DNA from: a virus
Virus record (IMG/VR): IMGVR_UViG_3300021963_000772
Span: 1 to 21,166 of that record
DNA: 21,166 bases
Strand: one strand, 5' to 3'
Below the pieces are notes generated by a model. The model saw nothing but the letters and a program-made list of their open reading frames with translations, was not told the DNA's origin and did not search any database. Made by a program: the position numbers and the translations under genes. Of the stretch, positions 4,405-17,678 are shown piece by piece (positions within the stretch are counted from its first letter, which is position 1; every line of letters begins with the position of its first letter).

Positions 4405-5394
4405 TCATATCATTTTTGTATAAGGAGGCCCGTAAACTTTACCAGGATGCAGGTGTATATTGTACATTGTAGTGTTAATTAGGTCTGTCATCCAAATAGC
4501 ATTAGAAATACCAGAGTTCACGATACCAAAAGTTGCTAGTGGAGCGGTCATAGAAATAAATGAAACGATTGGGCCGGCCGTAAAAATTGAAACAGGTATC
4601 GCTAAAGGTGAAGCAGGAGTGGGAAATCCTAACGAAAGACCGCCAGTACCAGAAGTAAATCCCATTAAACCAGCACCAATACCACCAAGTGGACCAGTAT
4701 CTATACGACCTAATCCAACAGGGTCTTGTACAAGTAGTGAATAGCATGTTACTGCACCCTCAATCACCAAGTCACCTTTAATAATCTTACTGTCACCAGT
4801 TAAAAACTTCATGTAACCCAATGCAGTAGGGTTTACGCCAAGATTACAGTTACCACTTGAAATGATACTTAAATCACGTTTAGTGGATACACTATAATCA
4901 CCTTTCACATAAAGAATATAATCACCATCAACTCTTTCATACTTGTCGCCTTTGGTGTGAACAATAGAATCACCTTCAATCGTGATACTACAAACTCCTT
5001 TTACCAACATGTTCTTGTTTTTCAGATGTATCTCATACCCATCACCAAAAACTTTGTGTACCTCATCACTATTTGGATGAATCTCAGTAAATGTTCCTGT
5101 TCTGTGTTGAATACGAACACGCTCACGGCCAGGTGTATCGTCCAATTCAATAGAGTGGCGAGATTCTGATTGCCAAATTTTATTGTATGGATATACTGGT
5201 GGATTTTCTACTGAAGCCGGAGATTCAGGTTCAGTCCAAGACCTATCAAAACTTGGTTTACTAGCTAGTGCTTCCTTATCGGCTGTTAAAGGAGTTTTTA
5301 CATCACCAGTTAACAGAGTAGGATCTGACGTTCCTAATGCGTTTGTTCTAGCTGATTGTGTTAAGTTATTTAAATTTTGTGCTAATGTAGCCAT
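4405..5394 (-). CDS. Beta-helical central spike protein (gp5 C-terminal/VgrG-like)
   Basis: 329 residues. After a disordered-looking N-terminus, residues about 78-180 carry short repeats alternating hydrophobic and charged residues (HSIELDDTPG, VRIQHRTGTFTEI, GDGYEIHLKN, SITIEGDS, KGDKYERVDGDY, KGDYSVSTKRDL). This is the pattern of the triple-stranded beta-helix in T4 gp5 and VgrG spikes. The middle, about 225-300, is Gly/Ala/Pro-rich and hydrophobic. The C-terminus has NIHLHPGKVYGPP; an HxH pair (His314, His316) close to the end recalls the iron-binding tip of phage spikes such as P2 gpV. It is 19 bp downstream of the OB-fold gene, so the T4 gp5 role appears divided between the two genes. 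The fold is inferred from the pattern, without a structural search. Confidence 0.82.
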   Translation of the reverse strand: MATLAQNLNNLTQSARTNALGTSDPTLLTGDVKTPLTADKEALASKPSFDRSWTEPESPASVENPPVYPYNKIWQSESRHSIELDDTPGRERVRIQHRTGTFTEIHPNSDEVHKVFGDGYEIHLKNKNMLVKGVCSITIEGDSIVHTKGDKYERVDGDYILYVKGDYSVSTKRDLSIISSGNCNLGVNPTALGYMKFLTGDSKIIKGDLVIEGAVTCYSLLVQDPVGLGRIDTGPLGGIGAGLMGFTSGTGGLSLGFPTPASPLAIPVSIFTAGPIVSFISMTAPLATFGIVNSGISNAIWMTDLINTTMYNIHLHPGKVYGPPYTKMI

Positions 5395-5413
5395 TTAATT
5401 TCCTATAATATAA

Positions 5414-6781
5414 TTACGGTCCACGAACGCCGCCTTCAGAGCTATTAGCAACTGGAGTTGGTGCTGCGGCTGCAGCTGCGTTTGCCTCAGCTGTATTATT
5501 TGTCACTAAACCTTTAAAAAATGTCAAAGCTTCTTGTTGTTCCGCTTCACTTGTTGGTGTAACAAAAGCAGCAAGTAATTGAGCTGGAAAAGTAATAATT
5601 TTTACGGTCTCTGTAATGATTTGACCTGTTACACTAATTGTTTCTTGGACTTCTTTCACCAAATCACCAAAGTCACTACCAAATCCTAAAGAGCCAAACA
5701 TATCCGAAAAGATTCGTGCTAATGCACCTAAAAATTCAGCTAAACATTTTCTCAAAAATGCCAAAAGTTTTGCTGGCAAGCTTAAAATATAATCAATCAT
5801 TGCACGAATATAACGGACAATTCTGGTGATAACATTTAAAGCTGCATTAACCATTTTTAAGAAATCACGTATTTCCCTCAATATTCTATTAAACTTACGA
5901 AGTGTTTCAGTAATCTTTTTGAGTGTTCCAGATGGATCCAAATTCATACCAGAAGTAATTCCGTTCACAATAAATCTAATTAGTTCACCAAGTTTTGTCA
6001 TCATAACTTTTGCCCAATCAGATATACCCTTCAATTCATTTGATATATCACAAACGTGTTCTCTGCGAGAATTCGTTACAAGATGAACAGTTCCGGTTAC
6101 CTCACCTCTAGCAATTCTTGGCACAGATGGTTCACCAACTACGCCATCTTTTGAATAACCTGGTTCTCTTGGACCTTGATTGATTTCAGCTTGACTTCTT
6201 GGATCTCTATACCCGCCTGGAGGTTGAGCTTCATTTATTGCATTATATTGTGCAACTCTTTCTTCCAAACTTTTAACAAGTCTTCTTTGTTCTTCAATTT
6301 GTTTGTCAACATCTTTTATATCTGCCCATCTTTGTAAGCCTCCAGTATCTTCAGGATTTGGCTTACTAGCAGCAAGAGTATTTTTTTTCTTTACTAGGTC
6401 GTCTAGTTTTGCTCTTTGTGTATTAAGTTCATCTTTTAAAGCGTTAACAACGTCAGTAGATGAAGTAACTTCTCGTCTTGTATCGGATACAATTCCAGGA
6501 AATACACCTATTACAACAGGTTGTTGACCCTCTTTACCATCCATAAAGAAGCCCATAACCCATTCACCTTCTTTTGGAACGGTGAATGATGTAGCTCCGT
6601 TAGTTGGTAATAGAATTGAAGACCAAGGTAATTTGTCTGTAGGTAATTCCGCTTTGTTGTCTGTGTGCCAACCAATGATTCTAACACGAAGACGACCAAC
6701 TTTCAAGGGGTCTTCTCGTGCTTCAACGATACCTACCCACCAGATAAAGCCATTTTTACCAGAAAAATCCGAATCACTCAT
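5414..6781 (-). CDS. Baseplate hub OB-fold protein (gp5 N-terminal-like) with long helical C-terminus, no lysozyme domain
   Basis: 455 residues. Residues 1-100 match the gp5/VgrG-type OB-fold that connects hub to spike: WWVGIVEAREDPLKVGRLRVRIIGWH, LPWSSILLP and EGEWVMGFFMDGKEGQQPVVIGVFPG. Residues about 110-180 are charged and coiled-coil-like. Residues about 185-240 are Pro/Gly-rich. Residues about 245-425 are a run of amphipathic to hydrophobic helices with many Arg/Lys (IVRYIRAMIDYILSLPAK). The tail is Ala-rich. T4 gp5 has a lysozyme domain after its OB domain; I see no Glu-Asp-Thr lysozyme motif here, and the beta-helix is encoded by the next gene. The ATG overlaps the stop of the gp27-like gene by one base and has an AGGAA ribosome site. 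gp5 equivalence of the N-terminus is firm; the role of the helical half is unknown. Confidence 0.88.
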   Translation of the reverse strand: MSDSDFSGKNGFIWWVGIVEAREDPLKVGRLRVRIIGWHTDNKAELPTDKLPWSSILLPTNGATSFTVPKEGEWVMGFFMDGKEGQQPVVIGVFPGIVSDTRREVTSSTDVVNALKDELNTQRAKLDDLVKKKNTLAASKPNPEDTGGLQRWADIKDVDKQIEEQRRLVKSLEERVAQYNAINEAQPPGGYRDPRSQAEINQGPREPGYSKDGVVGEPSVPRIARGEVTGTVHLVTNSRREHVCDISNELKGISDWAKVMMTKLGELIRFIVNGITSGMNLDPSGTLKKITETLRKFNRILREIRDFLKMVNAALNVITRIVRYIRAMIDYILSLPAKLLAFLRKCLAEFLGALARIFSDMFGSLGFGSDFGDLVKEVQETISVTGQIITETVKIITFPAQLLAAFVTPTSEAEQQEALTFFKGLVTNNTAEANAAAAAAPTPVANSSEGGVRGP

Positions 6782-11940: not shown

Positions 11941-12675
11941 ATGTTACCTAAAATTGATGTGCCTGTTTATGAACTTTCTGTTCCATCTACTGGTAAAAAA
12001 ATAAAGTTTAAACCTTTCACCGTCAAAGAAGAAAAACTTCTTTTGATGGCTTACCAGTCTGAGGATGCAAAATACTCAATTGATACAATCGTTCAAGTTT
12101 TAAATAACTGTATGGTTGGAGATGTTGATGTGACTAATTTTCCAACTTTCGACATTGAATATTTGTTCTTGCATTTGAGAGCACGTTCTGTTGGTGAAGT
12201 TGTTAATTTGAAATATCGTTGCAATAATACCATCGAAACAAAAGAAGATGGGTCGGAAGTTAAATGCAATGGCCAAGTGCAAATTGATTTAAATGTTTTA
12301 GAAGTAGATATACATCGTTCTCCAGAACACACCAATAAAATTGAAATTACAGATAAACTTGGTATTGTGATGAAATACCCAAAAATGAATTTCATACAAA
12401 ACGATAAAATAGATGATGAGTTTCAAGTTGTTTTGGATTTGATTGTTGATTGTATTGATTACATCTATGATGAACAAAATCTATATTATGCTAAAGATTC
12501 AACTAAAGAAGAACTCACAGATTTCTTAGATTCACTACAAGGTAAAGACTTAGAAAAAATTAAAAACTTTTTCGATACGATGCCTAAAATGAGAAAGACT
12601 GTCGATTTCAAATGTAAAAAGTGTGGTTATCAAGAAGACATGCAGCTTGAGGGTCTTCAAAGTTTTTTCGGATAA
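11941..12675 (+). CDS. gp26: Baseplate hub assembly / tail chaperone protein, gp26-like (0-frame product)
   Basis: 244 residues. It starts MLPKIDVPVYELSVPSTGKKIKFKPFTVKEEKLLLMA, the typical opening of the T4-like base plate protein family annotated gp26 in environmental phages. Cys94 and Cys109 (flanking a small loop) plus Cys225-x2-Cys228 near the C-terminus suggest a split zinc ribbon. The start has a good TGAGGA ribosome site 11 bp upstream. It precedes the tape-measure candidate, the place of tail assembly chaperones in long-tailed phages. The 0-frame ends at 12675, but a slippery T TTT TTC six bases before the stop and an open -1 frame suggest a minor longer product of about 307 residues. 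gp51 is the alternative T4 counterpart. Confidence 0.85.
   Translation: MLPKIDVPVYELSVPSTGKKIKFKPFTVKEEKLLLMAYQSEDAKYSIDTIVQVLNNCMVGDVDVTNFPTFDIEYLFLHLRARSVGEVVNLKYRCNNTIETKEDGSEVKCNGQVQIDLNVLEVDIHRSPEHTNKIEITDKLGIVMKYPKMNFIQNDKIDDEFQVVLDLIVDCIDYIYDEQNLYYAKDSTKEELTDFLDSLQGKDLEKIKNFFDTMPKMRKTVDFKCKKCGYQEDMQLEGLQSFFG
12649..12669 (+). promoter_or_regulatory. Candidate programmed -1 ribosomal frameshift signal
   Basis: In the gp26 reading frame the codons AGT TTT TTC form the heptamer T TTT TTC (12663-12669), a canonical X XXY YYZ slippery site. A Shine-Dalgarno-like GAGGG at 12649-12653 lies 9 nt upstream, close to the spacing of the stimulator in E. coli dnaX. The 0-frame stop TAA follows at 12673. 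Downstream I find only a weak 5-bp AT stem (12685-12689 with 12700-12704), so an upstream-SD mechanism is more likely than a pseudoknot. Confidence 0.7.
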
Positions 12676-12863
12676 CATTTGGCCATGATAACCTAGAGAA
12701 TCATTACAATACAAACTTTGCTATGATGCAACACCACAAGTATAGTTTGACTGAATTGGAGAATATGATTCCTTGGGAAAAAGATATCTACGTGAATATG
12801 CTAATCAGATATCTTGAAGAAGAAAATGAGAGAATTAAAAATTTAAATCAAAAGAGAAAATAA
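12669..12863 (+). CDS. -1 frame extension of the gp26-like chaperone (T-like domain)
   Basis: Open -1 frame giving 64 further residues after the slip (R-I-T-F-G-H-D-N-L-E and on), ending at TAA 12861-12863, directly before the tape-measure ATG at 12864. The frame opens at 12651 after a TGA and holds no ATG, GTG or TTG until 12723, where the ATG has no convincing ribosome site, so independent translation would lose a conserved-looking segment. The peptide contains HHKYSLTELENMIPWEKDIYVNMLIRYLEEENE, a hydrophobic/aromatic pattern like the short T-type domains of tail assembly chaperones. I infer expression as a fusion to the gp26-like protein; a separate short gene from 12723 (46 residues) is the alternative. 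Confidence 0.7.
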   Translation, partial: RITFGHDNLENHYNTNFAMMQHHKYSLTELENMIPWEKDIYVNMLIRYLEEENERIKNLNQKRK

Positions 12864-14756
12864 ATGGCCACAGCACCAGCAACATCAACAAAACTTGCAG
12901 ACATAATTAAATATCGCCGAAAACAAGGCGGCGGTGTTGCTAGTTCTTTGGCCGGTGGCATTAAAGAAAAACTTAAAGAGAAGTTTGATCCACGCCAAAT
13001 ATTTGACCAACAAGGTATTTTGACAGCTTTGTTTCCTGGTCTAAAAGCATTTAAAGCAACGACCGGTCCAAAACAAGAATTAAAAGATAAGATTGCTCCA
13101 TCTATATCCTTTGAAGAAATTGTTCCTGTATTGGAAAAAATCAATGCAAACACCAGAATAATTTCAAAAAATATGATGGTGTTACCAGCAATGCATCGTG
13201 ATATCAATGTGATGAGGCAAAATATTGGTAAACTTGTCAAACTTAAAGGCGCAAGTGCATCAAATAAAGCTGACATGTACTTTATGAAGGCTAAGGAAAG
13301 AGAAGCTCTTTATGAAGAACAATATAAAAAAGTACCAACAAGAATATCACCATCAGGATCAGGATCACCAGATTCTGGCGATAAAGAAGAAGGTGGTGCT
13401 GGTTTAATTGCATCTTTTGCTAATAGTATTATTGATGCTATCGGTTCTTTGGGTAAAGCTATATTAACTGCGTTTTCAACTTTAGCTGGTATATTAAAGA
13501 ATTTATTTTTCGCATTAGTTGTTCCGGTTGTATCAGCTATTTTAAGTGCTTTAGGTTCCGTATTAGGAACATTGATAATTGAATTCATAAAAGGTTTAGG
13601 CATATTTTCGAGTATAGGTAAGTTTTTGAAATTCTTAGTAACAAGAATTTTACCTAGATTGTTTTGGCCTTTAGCTATAGCTGCAGCGGCTTATTATATC
13701 AACGACAAATTTAATATATTTGGAAATTTATATGAAGGCATGGCTGAAGGAAGAATTCAAGATGCTGTAGATACATTACCGATGCCAAATATTAAAGTCG
13801 GTGAAGAAGTTTCTCCAGGACAATTTGCTACAAAAGAAGTTTTAGCTAGACCAGGAAAACCAAGAGATTTTAAAAATGTCTCAGCTTTGAATGAGTCTGG
13901 ACCAGAAAAAATGTATAATCCAACCGTAGCTAAAGAAGTTAGGGATGGAAAAAGACAAGCTTACAACCTTGTTTTTCCTGGTTTAACCGGTCAAAGAAGC
14001 CGACTATCTTTACCATTAACAGAAAATGAAGCCTTAGATTTTGGTAAAAAATACGCAACTCTAAATTCTACACTACAACAATTGGACGCTTTAAGGAAGA
14101 AAAAGAAAGAAAGTAGAAGTCCAGGTGAAGAAAGACAATATCAAAAAGACATTGATAATAAAAACATTGTTCTTTCAGAACTTTTGGATTACATAAGAAG
14201 AAAATATAAAGAAATTGTAGAAAAATCTTTTCATCCAGAAATTTTAAACAATACTAGAGGTTTGAGTAGTGTGGGTACAGCTTTTGGTGGAGTTAAAGGT
14301 TTAGTTGATGATATGCAAAAGATGATTGATAATCCAGAAATTCAAGCATCATCATTAGTCATACCAAACGAATTTAAAGAAGCTTTTGATTTCGGTGTTG
14401 ATGAAGACAGTCTCAACAAAGCAGGCGCAGCTGCAACAGAAAAAGTTGCTCCAATAATCAGAGGAAAAGTAGAAGAAGCGGTGACAAATTTGAGATTGGA
14501 TCCAAGCCAATTTACACCACAACTTGAAGCACCAAAAGATGGAACTGGTGCAGGTCAACAAATACAACAAAAATCAGGTGAAGTAAAATCAGAAAAACAA
14601 AGTTCATTAATGATGGATCAATCAGACACCAAAGTTTCTAGTTTGACTTCAAATAAAGGTACTTCAAGTGTTACTCATATTCCTGAAGAAGCTTCACCTT
14701 GGAATATGGACTTAATTGGAAACATTTTAACTGGCCAAAGAGCACTAATAGGTTAA
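12864..14756 (+). CDS. Tape-measure-like tail protein
   Basis: 630 residues. Residues 1-155 form a basic domain shared with the next gene (KLADIIKYRRKQGGGVASSLAGGIKEKLKEKFDPRQIF, LFPGLKAFKA, MVLPAMHRDINVMRQN, KADMYFMKAKEREALYEE). A Ser/Pro/Gly linker follows, then about 178-280 is a long hydrophobic stretch with several possible membrane segments (NLFFALVVPVVSAILSALGSVLGTLII). The remainder is mainly charged helix to the end. Length is near T4 gp29 (590), and hydrophobic segments plus position directly after a frameshifting chaperone are tape-measure traits. I see no hydrolase motif. The start is 0 bp from the stop of the -1 frame, with AGAGAAAA as a weak ribosome site. Function is inferred from context, not from direct similarity to gp29. 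Confidence 0.75.
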   Translation: MATAPATSTKLADIIKYRRKQGGGVASSLAGGIKEKLKEKFDPRQIFDQQGILTALFPGLKAFKATTGPKQELKDKIAPSISFEEIVPVLEKINANTRIISKNMMVLPAMHRDINVMRQNIGKLVKLKGASASNKADMYFMKAKEREALYEEQYKKVPTRISPSGSGSPDSGDKEEGGAGLIASFANSIIDAIGSLGKAILTAFSTLAGILKNLFFALVVPVVSAILSALGSVLGTLIIEFIKGLGIFSSIGKFLKFLVTRILPRLFWPLAIAAAAYYINDKFNIFGNLYEGMAEGRIQDAVDTLPMPNIKVGEEVSPGQFATKEVLARPGKPRDFKNVSALNESGPEKMYNPTVAKEVRDGKRQAYNLVFPGLTGQRSRLSLPLTENEALDFGKKYATLNSTLQQLDALRKKKKESRSPGEERQYQKDIDNKNIVLSELLDYIRRKYKEIVEKSFHPEILNNTRGLSSVGTAFGGVKGLVDDMQKMIDNPEIQASSLVIPNEFKEAFDFGVDEDSLNKAGAAATEKVAPIIRGKVEEAVTNLRLDPSQFTPQLEAPKDGTGAGQQIQQKSGEVKSEKQSSLMMDQSDTKVSSLTSNKGTSSVTHIPEEASPWNMDLIGNILTGQRALIG

Positions 14757-14759
14757 TAA

Positions 14760-16745
14760 ATGGCAAAATTATCCGAAATAATTAAATATCAGCGCTCGCA
14801 AGGAAAAGGAGTTGGTTCTTCTTTAGCTGGTGGTATTAAAGAGAGACTGAAAGAAAAATTTGACCCTAGAAAGATGTTCAATCAAAAGGGTTTAATGGTA
14901 TCTTTGTTTCCTGGTCTAAAAGCATATAGAGCAAAGACAACGAAAGAAAAATTAATATCGAAAAATGTAACAGGAGATTTTCTTACAGTAAAACCTCTGT
15001 TTGAATCCATTGATGCAGGTTCAACTTTATCTGCAAAAAACTCAATGGTTTTACCATCTATGCATCGTGATTTTAATATTATGAGGCAGAATGTAATCAA
15101 ATTAGTAAAATTAGAAAATGTTAAGCCCGCAACAAAAGCAGATATGTATTTTGTAAAAGCTTCTGAAAGAGAAAAGCTTTACGAATCTGAAATGCAAACC
15201 AAAAAGGGTGTAAAATCTTCCAGTCCGACAAAATTGGAAACTTCTAAAAATTCACCATCAAGAAGTGGTTTTTCCGTTGGATTTAAATTTATTGCCTTAT
15301 TAGCAGCTGGTGCTTTGATTGTGAAAGCGATTGAAAAGATTGAAAAAGAAGACATAAAAAAAGCATTGACAGATTTTATTTCTTTCATAACAGGTTCTTT
15401 TTCTGCAAATGCGGCAATAAATCGTAATCCAGGAAATATTTCAAAAGATAGCAGTGGAAAATTGTATAAAGAAATACAAATTTCTGAAGCTGAAAAAGAA
15501 CTTAATAAATTTAAATTTAAAGATTTGTCAGAAGCACAAAAGACTGCTTTTTTTGAATCACAATTTAAATCAGAAGGAAATAAACCAGGAACTATAGCTT
15601 ATGACCAAAATAATCCTGGCGCAATGGTTTATAGAGAATGGATGAAGAAATATGGTGGTGAACCAGGAAAAACTGTTATTGGTCCAGATGGAATAACAAG
15701 AACATTTGCTAAATTTCCAACACTCGAAAAAGGTAAAGAAGCACAAAGAGCTCTTTGGGAATCGGAAGCTTATTCAGAAAAACCACTTGGCCAAGCTTTA
15801 AGAACTTGGGTAACACCAATGGGTGATGATGCAAATACTGCTTTCGCTGGTTATGTGGAGAGAGGTCGAACTGCTATAACAAAAGTTGGGCCGTTGCCTG
15901 CTCAAACTGTAAGTCAACCACCAACAACAGCTCGTGATTATAGTGTATCACAATCCGATTCATCACAACGAACACCATCCGTGCCTTTTGTTCCAGGTCA
16001 AGAAGGACTTAGACCACCCATGCAAACGGCCGGTGATATCAACACAAAAGTTTCAGCTGAAGGTTTAAAGACCAACGTTGTTTCATATGGAACAATGAAT
16101 AAAATAGAGAACTTGGTTTTACATCATACTGGTGGCCACGGTCTCCAAGCTACGATACGAACCCTCGAATCGGCGAGAGATGTAAAAGGTACTCAGTATG
16201 CTACACATTACGTAATTGACAGAGATGGAAAAGTTTATCAAGTTAGATATGATAGTGATTTATTGTATCACTTAGGAGATACAAGCAAAAGACCTTCCGT
16301 TTTAAATTCAAATACTTTAGGTGTTGAAATTATTGGCAAGGATAGTTCCGATTTTACTCCACAACAAATTGTTGCAGCGAAAGCATTATCTAGCCAATTA
16401 TCAAAGAAATATGGAATACCTTCATCAAATATTTTTGGACACGGTGAAGTATCAGCCGGCAAAATGCCTACAGAAGGAACAGATTTAGCTAAAACTATTC
16501 GTGGAGAATTCTTAGAAGCTGAACAAAAACGTGATAAAAAAGTTTCTCTAATACGTGGTAGTGAAAACATTGGAGAATCTATTAGTCTAGCTTCTGCTAA
16601 AGTAATGTTAGAAGAAGAACTTGGTTTAAATAACTCAGTCTTCATTCTAAGCCAAAACAATACTCACACCAATACTGTTTACTTGCCAAGAGCTGCAGGC
16701 AATATCAATCCAGTCAGACAACTACTAACAAGCAGTCTCGGATAA
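14760..16745 (+). CDS. Tail-associated N-acetylmuramoyl-L-alanine amidase with tape-measure-type N-terminal domain
   Basis: 661 residues. Residues 1-147 are clearly paralogous to the start of the preceding protein. A single hydrophobic segment lies at about 173-190 (FKFIALLAAGALIVKAI). Residues about 255-370 hold a domain with NNPGAMVYREW and FAKFPTLEKGKEAQRALW that I do not name; the pattern recalls phage structural NPG domains. Residues about 448-580 are an amidase_2/PGRP domain: LVLHHTGG (His455/His456), ATHYVIDRDGKVYQV, LLYHLGD, NTLGVEIIG and FGHGEVSAGKMPTEG (His561, Lys568, Glu572). Zn ligands would be one of the HH pair, His561 and a third near 571-572 where AmpD has Asp. It probably cleaves peptidoglycan during DNA entry. 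The gene ends before a terminator. Confidence 0.85.
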   Translation: MAKLSEIIKYQRSQGKGVGSSLAGGIKERLKEKFDPRKMFNQKGLMVSLFPGLKAYRAKTTKEKLISKNVTGDFLTVKPLFESIDAGSTLSAKNSMVLPSMHRDFNIMRQNVIKLVKLENVKPATKADMYFVKASEREKLYESEMQTKKGVKSSSPTKLETSKNSPSRSGFSVGFKFIALLAAGALIVKAIEKIEKEDIKKALTDFISFITGSFSANAAINRNPGNISKDSSGKLYKEIQISEAEKELNKFKFKDLSEAQKTAFFESQFKSEGNKPGTIAYDQNNPGAMVYREWMKKYGGEPGKTVIGPDGITRTFAKFPTLEKGKEAQRALWESEAYSEKPLGQALRTWVTPMGDDANTAFAGYVERGRTAITKVGPLPAQTVSQPPTTARDYSVSQSDSSQRTPSVPFVPGQEGLRPPMQTAGDINTKVSAEGLKTNVVSYGTMNKIENLVLHHTGGHGLQATIRTLESARDVKGTQYATHYVIDRDGKVYQVRYDSDLLYHLGDTSKRPSVLNSNTLGVEIIGKDSSDFTPQQIVAAKALSSQLSKKYGIPSSNIFGHGEVSAGKMPTEGTDLAKTIRGEFLEAEQKRDKKVSLIRGSENIGESISLASAKVMLEEELGLNNSVFILSQNNTHTNTVYLPRAAGNINPVRQLLTSSLG

Positions 16746-16770: not shown

Positions 16771-16795
16771 CTAAACTAAGTGAGTTTAGTTTATT
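16771..16795 (+). terminator. Second hairpin with T-rich tail (for the plus-strand cluster)
   Basis: CTAAACT (16771-16777) pairs with AGTTTAG (16783-16789) across AAGTG, followed on the plus strand by TTTATT. The stem is AT-rich and weaker than the neighbouring hairpin, and its tail overlaps the gp32 stop codon. Together the two hairpins separate the convergent transcription units. Confidence 0.6.
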
Positions 16796-17678
16796 CTGCT
16801 AGAGATTTGAAATAATCCAAATCTTCATCAGCATCAGCAGCAATCTTTTGGTCGATTACGCCAATATCATCATCATTAAACTTGTTAACAACGGCAGATT
16901 CTGCTCGTGTAGAAGGTGCAACACCTTCAAAACCTAGAACCTTATCAAGGCGTGCCTTGAGTTGAGCGTGAGGTTTGAATTGTGACTTCTCTGTAAATTC
17001 TTTCAGAGAATACTCTTTCTTCCAAAGAGCTTCAAGTTTCTCATCATCACCATCAAGTAATGCAGACTTATCAGAGAATTCTGATTTGTCATAGTTACGA
17101 TAGCCTTCAACATTACGAATCTTCAACTTGAAGTTAGCACCTTCCCACATATCAAATGGGTTAACTGGTGTTTCGTCAGCAAACTCAGGGTTCATGGCTT
17201 CAGTAATCTTATCAAAGATTTTCTTACCGAATTTGAACAACTTAATTTGACCTTCGTTGGATGGGTCGCTTGGGTCAGAAACAACCAAGACGTTTGCAAC
17301 ATAAGAAAGCTTACGCTTTTGCTTACGTGCGATATCTTTGTTTGCTTCAATACCAGAATTCCATAACGTGTTGTTGTGCTCACAAACAGGGCACTTCTCA
17401 TTGATAGTAGTCAAGCAGTTATCAATGAACCAACCGCCAGGACCTTGGAAACCGTGAGAGAAAACACGAACCCATGGAAGTGCATCGTCACCATCAGCAG
17501 CTGGTGCTGGGAGGAAACGAATAACAGCCATGCCGTTACCTGCTTTGTCTACTTGGGGTTGCCAGAATCTGGTGTCGTCTTTACCGCCTGATTCAGCGGG
17601 TTGACCGGATGCTTCAATCGCTTTAGTTAGTTTGTCCAAAGAACTACGATTGCGCTTAAGATTTGCAAATGAACTCAT
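16791..17678 (-). CDS. gp32: Single-stranded DNA-binding protein gp32
   Basis: 295 residues; T4 gp32 is 301. It coats ssDNA in replication, recombination and repair. The N-terminus has a basic LAST-like motif (KRNRSS, residues 8-13) for cooperativity. The core has FWQPQVDKAGNGMAVIRFLPAP and a zinc site with His75, Cys88, Cys96 and Cys99, the same H-x12-C spacing as T4 His64/Cys77 and a CPVC knuckle. The C-terminus is acidic (NDDDIGVID, DADEDLDYFKSLAE), the part that contacts partner proteins in T4. The ATG has a GGAG site 5-6 nt upstream. A 73-nt leader region separates it from the nucleotidase gene, and a strong terminator follows. Confidence 0.96.
   Translation of the reverse strand: MSSFANLKRNRSSLDKLTKAIEASGQPAESGGKDDTRFWQPQVDKAGNGMAVIRFLPAPAADGDDALPWVRVFSHGFQGPGGWFIDNCLTTINEKCPVCEHNNTLWNSGIEANKDIARKQKRKLSYVANVLVVSDPSDPSNEGQIKLFKFGKKIFDKITEAMNPEFADETPVNPFDMWEGANFKLKIRNVEGYRNYDKSEFSDKSALLDGDDEKLEALWKKEYSLKEFTEKSQFKPHAQLKARLDKVLGFEGVAPSTRAESAVVNKFNDDDIGVIDQKIAADADEDLDYFKSLAE

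Follow-up and report, generated by a model that had tools for sequence, protein, structure and literature searches.

What does a T4-like phage gain from two consecutive large genes that begin alike, when only the second carries a wall-cutting domain? The question is raised by IMG/VR record IMGVR_UViG_3300021963_000772, positions 1-21,166 (DNA, 21,166 bases; hereafter the window, meaning this whole stretch), a fragment of a T4-like phage filled with T4-type tail genes according to PHROG and Pfam profile matches, in which a gene pair, here called A and B, is placed between gp26 and gp32. The answer we favor, at a probability of about 0.74, is that A is a tape measure and B its tandem paralogue bearing an amidase, both being loaded into the tail with chaperones derived from gp26. 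Below, we describe the pair and its relatives, then the gp26 frameshift signal upstream of A, and finally weigh this reading against other functions for B.

Two genes with a shared N-terminal domain

Genes A and B are separated by 3 nucleotides and are organized as follows (lengths in amino acids, aa).

12864..14756, + strand: gene A, 630 aa, the proposed tape measure (follows directly on the chaperone gene; paralogy; hydropathy)
12891..13316, + strand: shared N-terminal domain in A, residues 10-151 (sequence comparison)
13461..13595, + strand: strongest hydrophobic stretch of A, residues 200-244 (Kyte-Doolittle scan)
14685..14753, + strand: C-terminal tail of A (EEASPWNMDLIGNILTGQRALIG); in several A orthologues this tail is similar to that of single-gene relatives
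14760..16745, + strand: gene B, 661 aa, a proposed paralogue of the tape measure that carries a virion-associated amidase (Amidase_2; paralogy to A)
14766..15185, + strand: shared N-terminal domain in B, residues 3-142 (sequence comparison)
15264..15335, + strand: single transmembrane-like segment of B, residues 169-192 (hydropathy scan)
15420..15839, + strand: NPG-motif region of B, residues about 221-360, without Pfam match (sequence)
16098..16451, + strand: Amidase_2 domain of B, residues 447-564 (PF01510, E 5.8e-22; PHROG endolysin/amidase matches)

The first-pass annotation of this DNA had described two genes that share their N-termini and then diverge, and its coordinates proved exact: the N-termini are 52% identical (71% positives) over 170 aa (BLASTP, E 5e-49), or 59% identical over the trimmed shared domain, and the six motifs it named (IIKY, SSLAGGIKE, FDPR, LFPGLKA, MVLPxMHRD and KADMYF) all occur in both proteins. 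The likeness ends at about residue 150-170, which leaves a shared part of about 142-170 residues. Beyond it, the long hydrophobic core described for A is indeed present (about residues 180-285, including segments that hydropathy predicts to be membrane-active), next to no recognized domain, and B has the expected single hydrophobic segment, NPG region and Amidase_2 domain (78.9 bits against a gathering cut-off of 26). NPG motifs lie near residues 221 and 284 of B, and a comparable stretch is found in the B proteins of four related contigs (L004, L005, L007 and L016). Within the predicted amidase, His455/456 and His561 are residues that two related amidase copies retain, while Glu572 apparently occupies the position of the third zinc ligand, assuming one inserted residue (the canonical site comprises two His plus Asp or Cys). 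At the other end of the pair's architecture, the C-terminal tails of four A orthologues (L019_A, L007_A, L073_A and L009_A) outscore the best of 4200 shuffles when compared to single-gene relatives; the score of the window A tail itself is not above the best of 4200 shuffles, and no significant C-terminal tail is common to the B copies, though their tails look alike by eye.

Relatives of the shared domain were found in IMG/VR. No Pfam or PHROG model matches it, and neither tblastn against cultured phages, with the domain or the A core as query, nor a scan of viral contigs with A alone found a relative. Domain searches built from a two-sequence and from a 31-sequence alignment recovered 17 and 55 IMG/VR loci, respectively, with some contigs in common. 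At every locus whose flanks are sufficiently covered, the domain belongs to the gene or genes that immediately follow gp26, and gp32 is next after this slot wherever the contig extends that far. The domain is specific to the slot, and a generic, unrelated domain is rejected on the lack of Pfam or PHROG matches together with its position after gp26 throughout. A sequence search of the PDB returned only weak matches to exocyst SEC6 (E 0.022), which we took as chance.

The slot comes in two layouts, either a single gene (e.g., L032, L034, L039, L087, L106 and L113) or a tandem pair (the window, L003, L004, L005, L007, L009, L013, L016, L019, L028 and L073). Many of the single genes (about 550-1000 aa) unite the N-terminal domain, hydrophobic segments and a hydrolase, the latter being Phage_lysozyme2, M23, SLT or a weaker Hydrolase_2 match; in several others no Pfam hydrolase was found. 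Among pairs, the recognized hydrolase sits on the second gene and its type varies: Amidase_2 in the window, L005 and L007, M23 in L004 and L016, a phage lysozyme plus VanY in L019, and a PHROG endolysin match in L013, with no clear Pfam domain in the B proteins of L003, L009 and L073. The A-slot products scanned in relatives contain no recognized wall hydrolase, save for a weak GDSL-lipase-like match in L013 (L013:8001-10043, E 0.0016), the only enzyme hint in any A copy.

The tape-measure duplications treated in PMC3271669 concern internal repeats, not paralogous genes. In the N-domain tree, one old duplication followed by simple descent is rejected (approximately unbiased test, p 0.004 for B and 0.0008 for A); neither the A copies nor the B copies form one group, so that either the duplication was repeated or the domain was homogenized within genomes. 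At identical residues, A and B of the same genome use the same codon in 69% of cases across residues 8-62; the figure is 54% for residues 62-150, and orthologues reach 60% (Fisher p 7e-6 and 0.014, on counts pooled over related genomes and hence not independent). This pattern suggests that the first 60 residues have undergone gene conversion. Where the first-pass annotation saw one copy converted into an amidase, the amidase on one copy stands, but the conversion is less likely, since many single genes already unite the N-terminal domain, hydrophobic segments and hydrolase. Because these relatives already hold all modules, the likelier history is that functions were divided between the copies once the gene had duplicated, and that hydrolase modules were exchanged repeatedly.

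The gp26 frameshift signal upstream of gene A

A -1 frameshift at the end of a tail-assembly-chaperone gene, just upstream of the tape-measure gene, is a known arrangement, which was reportedly set out by Xu, Hendrix and Duda in 2004. The region ahead of A contains the following features.

11941..12675, + strand: gp26-type protein of the T4_baseplate family, directly upstream of A and interpreted as tail assembly chaperone 'G' (PF12322, E 1e-64; phrog_150)
12663..12669, + strand: slippery heptamer T TTT TTC in the gp26 frame (inspection)
12669..12863, + strand: 64-aa extension of gp26 in the -1 frame ('T' part), including the stop codon (conserved peptide RITFGHDNL..YSLTELENMIPWEKDIY)

The 3' end of gp26 reads AGT TTT TTC GGA TAA, and the -1 frame after the heptamer stays open for 64 codons, its stop ending at 12863 and A starting at 12864. 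Nearly all gp26 loci examined display a heptamer TTTTTT[C/T/A] with an open -1 frame, and a frame of 56-67 codons with the conserved peptide is found in the related contigs as well as in S-RIM14, BUCT-ZZ01 and Stenotrophomonas phage YB07; the arrangement is not present in Vibrio phage D528. In S-SCSM1 (L126:6250-6320) the heptamer is present and the -1 frame stops after a few codons, unlike in the other cyanophages examined. The conserved peptide begins upstream of the first ATG, and across 40 distinct sequences substitutions in this pre-ATG part number 1913, 1018 and 2894 at -1-frame positions 1, 2 and 3. Translation by frameshifting is thus favored over a separate start, as the peptide is conserved before any ATG and the changes fall most often at third positions of the -1 frame.

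Gene A accordingly follows directly on what appears from its sequence (heptamer, conserved -1 frame, stop before A) to be a -1-frameshift chaperone gene, as a tape-measure gene would, and gp26 resembles chaperones of the G/GT kind in that its -1 product is conserved at the protein level before any start codon. In the open-access literature we found no paper tying a frameshift-chaperone organization to gp26. The extension matches 543 phage records, which often list it as a gene of its own under the name 'baseplate hub assembly catalyst', and Sullivan et al. (2010, PMC3037559) described cyanophage gp51 as reaching only some 20% of its normal length. When the gp26 fusion is turned into a profile, it also matches full-length T4-type gp51 (E 4e-10, vs. 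0.033 for the best of 2000 shuffles), and because of this match the two chaperone forms seem to be represented in T4 by gp26 and gp51, each with its own gene. As read from sequence, both T4 proteins may thus be G/GT-type tail assembly chaperones, and the gp26 frameshift offers a direct and testable role for both.

Tape measure, hub lysin or lysis enzyme

Applied to the pair, our favored reading is that both products would be put into the tail lumen by the same chaperones (gp26 and its -1 frameshift product), where A would set tail length and provide membrane-active hydrophobic segments. B would retain the N-terminal domain and a membrane segment, bear the predicted peptidoglycan amidase, exit the tube with or before the DNA, and open the host wall locally, taking over a role held in T4 by gp5, on which the T4 lysozyme is carried (PMC3004832). 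The window gp5-type proteins lack a recognized hydrolase domain, whereas contig L050 carries CHAP and GH19 in its gp5, and this fits a move of the wall-cutting function from gp5 to B, on the few gp5 genes examined. The reading suggests how, in T4-like marine phages, wall cutting may have left the needle of the baseplate for a second tape measure that can be exchanged. It would also give a structural role to proteins that cyanophage annotators call hypothetical or endolysin, and that one virion study deemed probably non-structural.

Known systems resemble the pair to different degrees. T4 gp29, present in three copies per tail (PMC3004832), also belongs to a T4-like tail, is of similar length (590 aa for T4-type gp29 vs. 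630 for A) and has a hydrophobic middle, but T4-type gp29 is a single gene without hydrolase, has neighbors that are ordered differently (gp26 and gp51 lie on opposite strands), and has no detectable sequence similarity to A. To judge from titles cited in PMC6116005, the tape measures of mycobacteriophage TM4, T5 (pb2) and Staphylococcus aureus phage phiIPLA35 carry wall-cutting activity, as proposed for B, although there the activity belongs to the tape measure itself, and in the window to a separate tandem paralogue. In Pelagibacter phage HTVC008M, as in the window, the slot follows gp26 and its extension, and the large gene there is annotated 'putative tail tape measure'; this slot is a single gene, however, without detectable similarity to the window N-terminal domain. 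Its protein is homologous to both members of cyanophage pairs (E 4.5e-37), several pair proteins matching it. Such pairs occur in the Kyanoviridae S-RIM14, S-H38, S-RIM2, S-SZBM1, ACG-2014f and S-T4, which have two large genes with paralogous N-termini after gp26 (jackhmmer), annotated as 'endolysin' or hypothetical. They share with the window the slot, the paralogy and, in most, a hydrolase on one or both members, but their N-terminal domain is not detectably homologous, both members often bear hydrolases, and a gp27-type tail protein usually follows, whereas in the window gp32 does.

Virion data exist for two cyanophages. ORF208 and ORF209 of S-CREM2 (L124, OR473000), between which no N-terminal paralogy was detected, were identified in virions with 73 and 71 unique peptides, and ORF213 and ORF214 of S-SCSM1 (L126) were both detected as well. 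By analogy of slot and architecture, these findings bear on A and B, and make probable the shared compartment that the first-pass annotation had proposed for the two products.

Several points weigh against the tape-measure reading. Gene A has no significant PHROG or Pfam tape-measure match, so the 'tape-measure-type' label reflects its context and not membership in a known family. The window N-domain profile has no significant match to the cyanophage pairs (best E 0.018) or to T4-type gp29, and since these matches are insignificant the window is linked to both by position, architecture and length. The third zinc ligand of B is not the canonical Asp or Cys. Finally, the S-SCSM1 authors thought it improbable that ORF213 and ORF214 are structural, and considered that they might be residues not removed by CsCl purification.

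The first-pass annotation had also regarded the shared part as a duplicated docking domain. The duplication is real and slot-specific, but docking on a gp27- or gp54-like hub is not borne out: in phage 80alpha the gp27-like hub accommodates three copies of the tape-measure C-terminus (PMC7048315), which makes the N-terminal domain an unlikely hub-docking part. By the same analogy, self-association, chaperone binding or a position at the head-proximal end would be more plausible roles.

Of the alternatives, the one that survives best is a narrower version of the tape-measure reading, in which A and B would assemble into one mixed bundle (e.g., one coiled coil) joined by the N-terminal domain, an idea that the first-pass annotation had raised for the tail. 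Here the tail ruler would consist of two proteins, a length-setting and a hydrolase-bearing chain, held together by an N-terminal module kept alike by gene conversion. We regard this as tentative, and on balance doubtful. The codon sharing at residues 8-62 suggests that something maintains the likeness of the first 60 residues, and the peptide counts of the S-CREM2 pair are near-equal, but the codon counts are pooled over related genomes, and no single nm-per-residue rule accounts for the tails of S-CREM2 (418 nm, 1565 + 1456 aa) and S-SCSM1 (173 nm, 950 + 1131 aa). Were a two-protein ruler true, wall-cutting enzymes could be swapped with the ruler left untouched.

A different placement would put B at the baseplate tip, as a lysin that the hub carries in the manner of the T4 gp5 lysozyme; the N-terminal domain would then be a baseplate adapter instead of part of a tape measure. 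The gp5 evidence given above (no recognized hydrolase on the window gp5-type proteins, CHAP and GH19 on that of L050) would suit this placement too, but we consider it unlikely, because B keeps a transmembrane-like segment next to the N-terminal domain, as do A and the single genes, because the order is chaperone, extension, A, B, and because the HTVC008M gene in the same slot is annotated as a tape measure. That B is an ordinary lysis endolysin fused by chance to the N-terminal domain is very improbable, as, despite the endolysin or amidase labels of its PHROG matches, B lies within the tail gene cluster in related contigs, varied hydrolases are attached to a constant N-terminal domain, and analogous proteins are found in virions.

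Flanking genes in the window

The - strand of the window encodes gp6, gp25, two gp5-like proteins, a gp27-type tail protein (named by position and the PHROG label 'tail protein'), gp53 and gp48, after which the + strand encodes gp4, gp2, a tube-type protein, gp26, A and B, followed by gp32 on the - strand. The best cultured match of gp26, among the matches listed, is a cyanophage (42% identity). Three of the flanking genes bear on the arguments above.

16791..17678, - strand: gp32 single-stranded DNA-binding protein, the fixed right neighbor of the slot in the group (phrog_224, E 2e-111)
5414..6781, - strand: gp5-type OB protein without recognized lysozyme domain (Gp5_OB, 5.9e-5; phrog_694, 2e-34)
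4405..5394, - strand: gp5 C-terminal-like protein without Pfam hydrolase domain (phrog_430, 6e-37; Gp5_trimer_C, weak)

At 4405-6781, the window appears to encode its gp5 in two parts, an OB-fold protein and a distinct C-terminal-like one.

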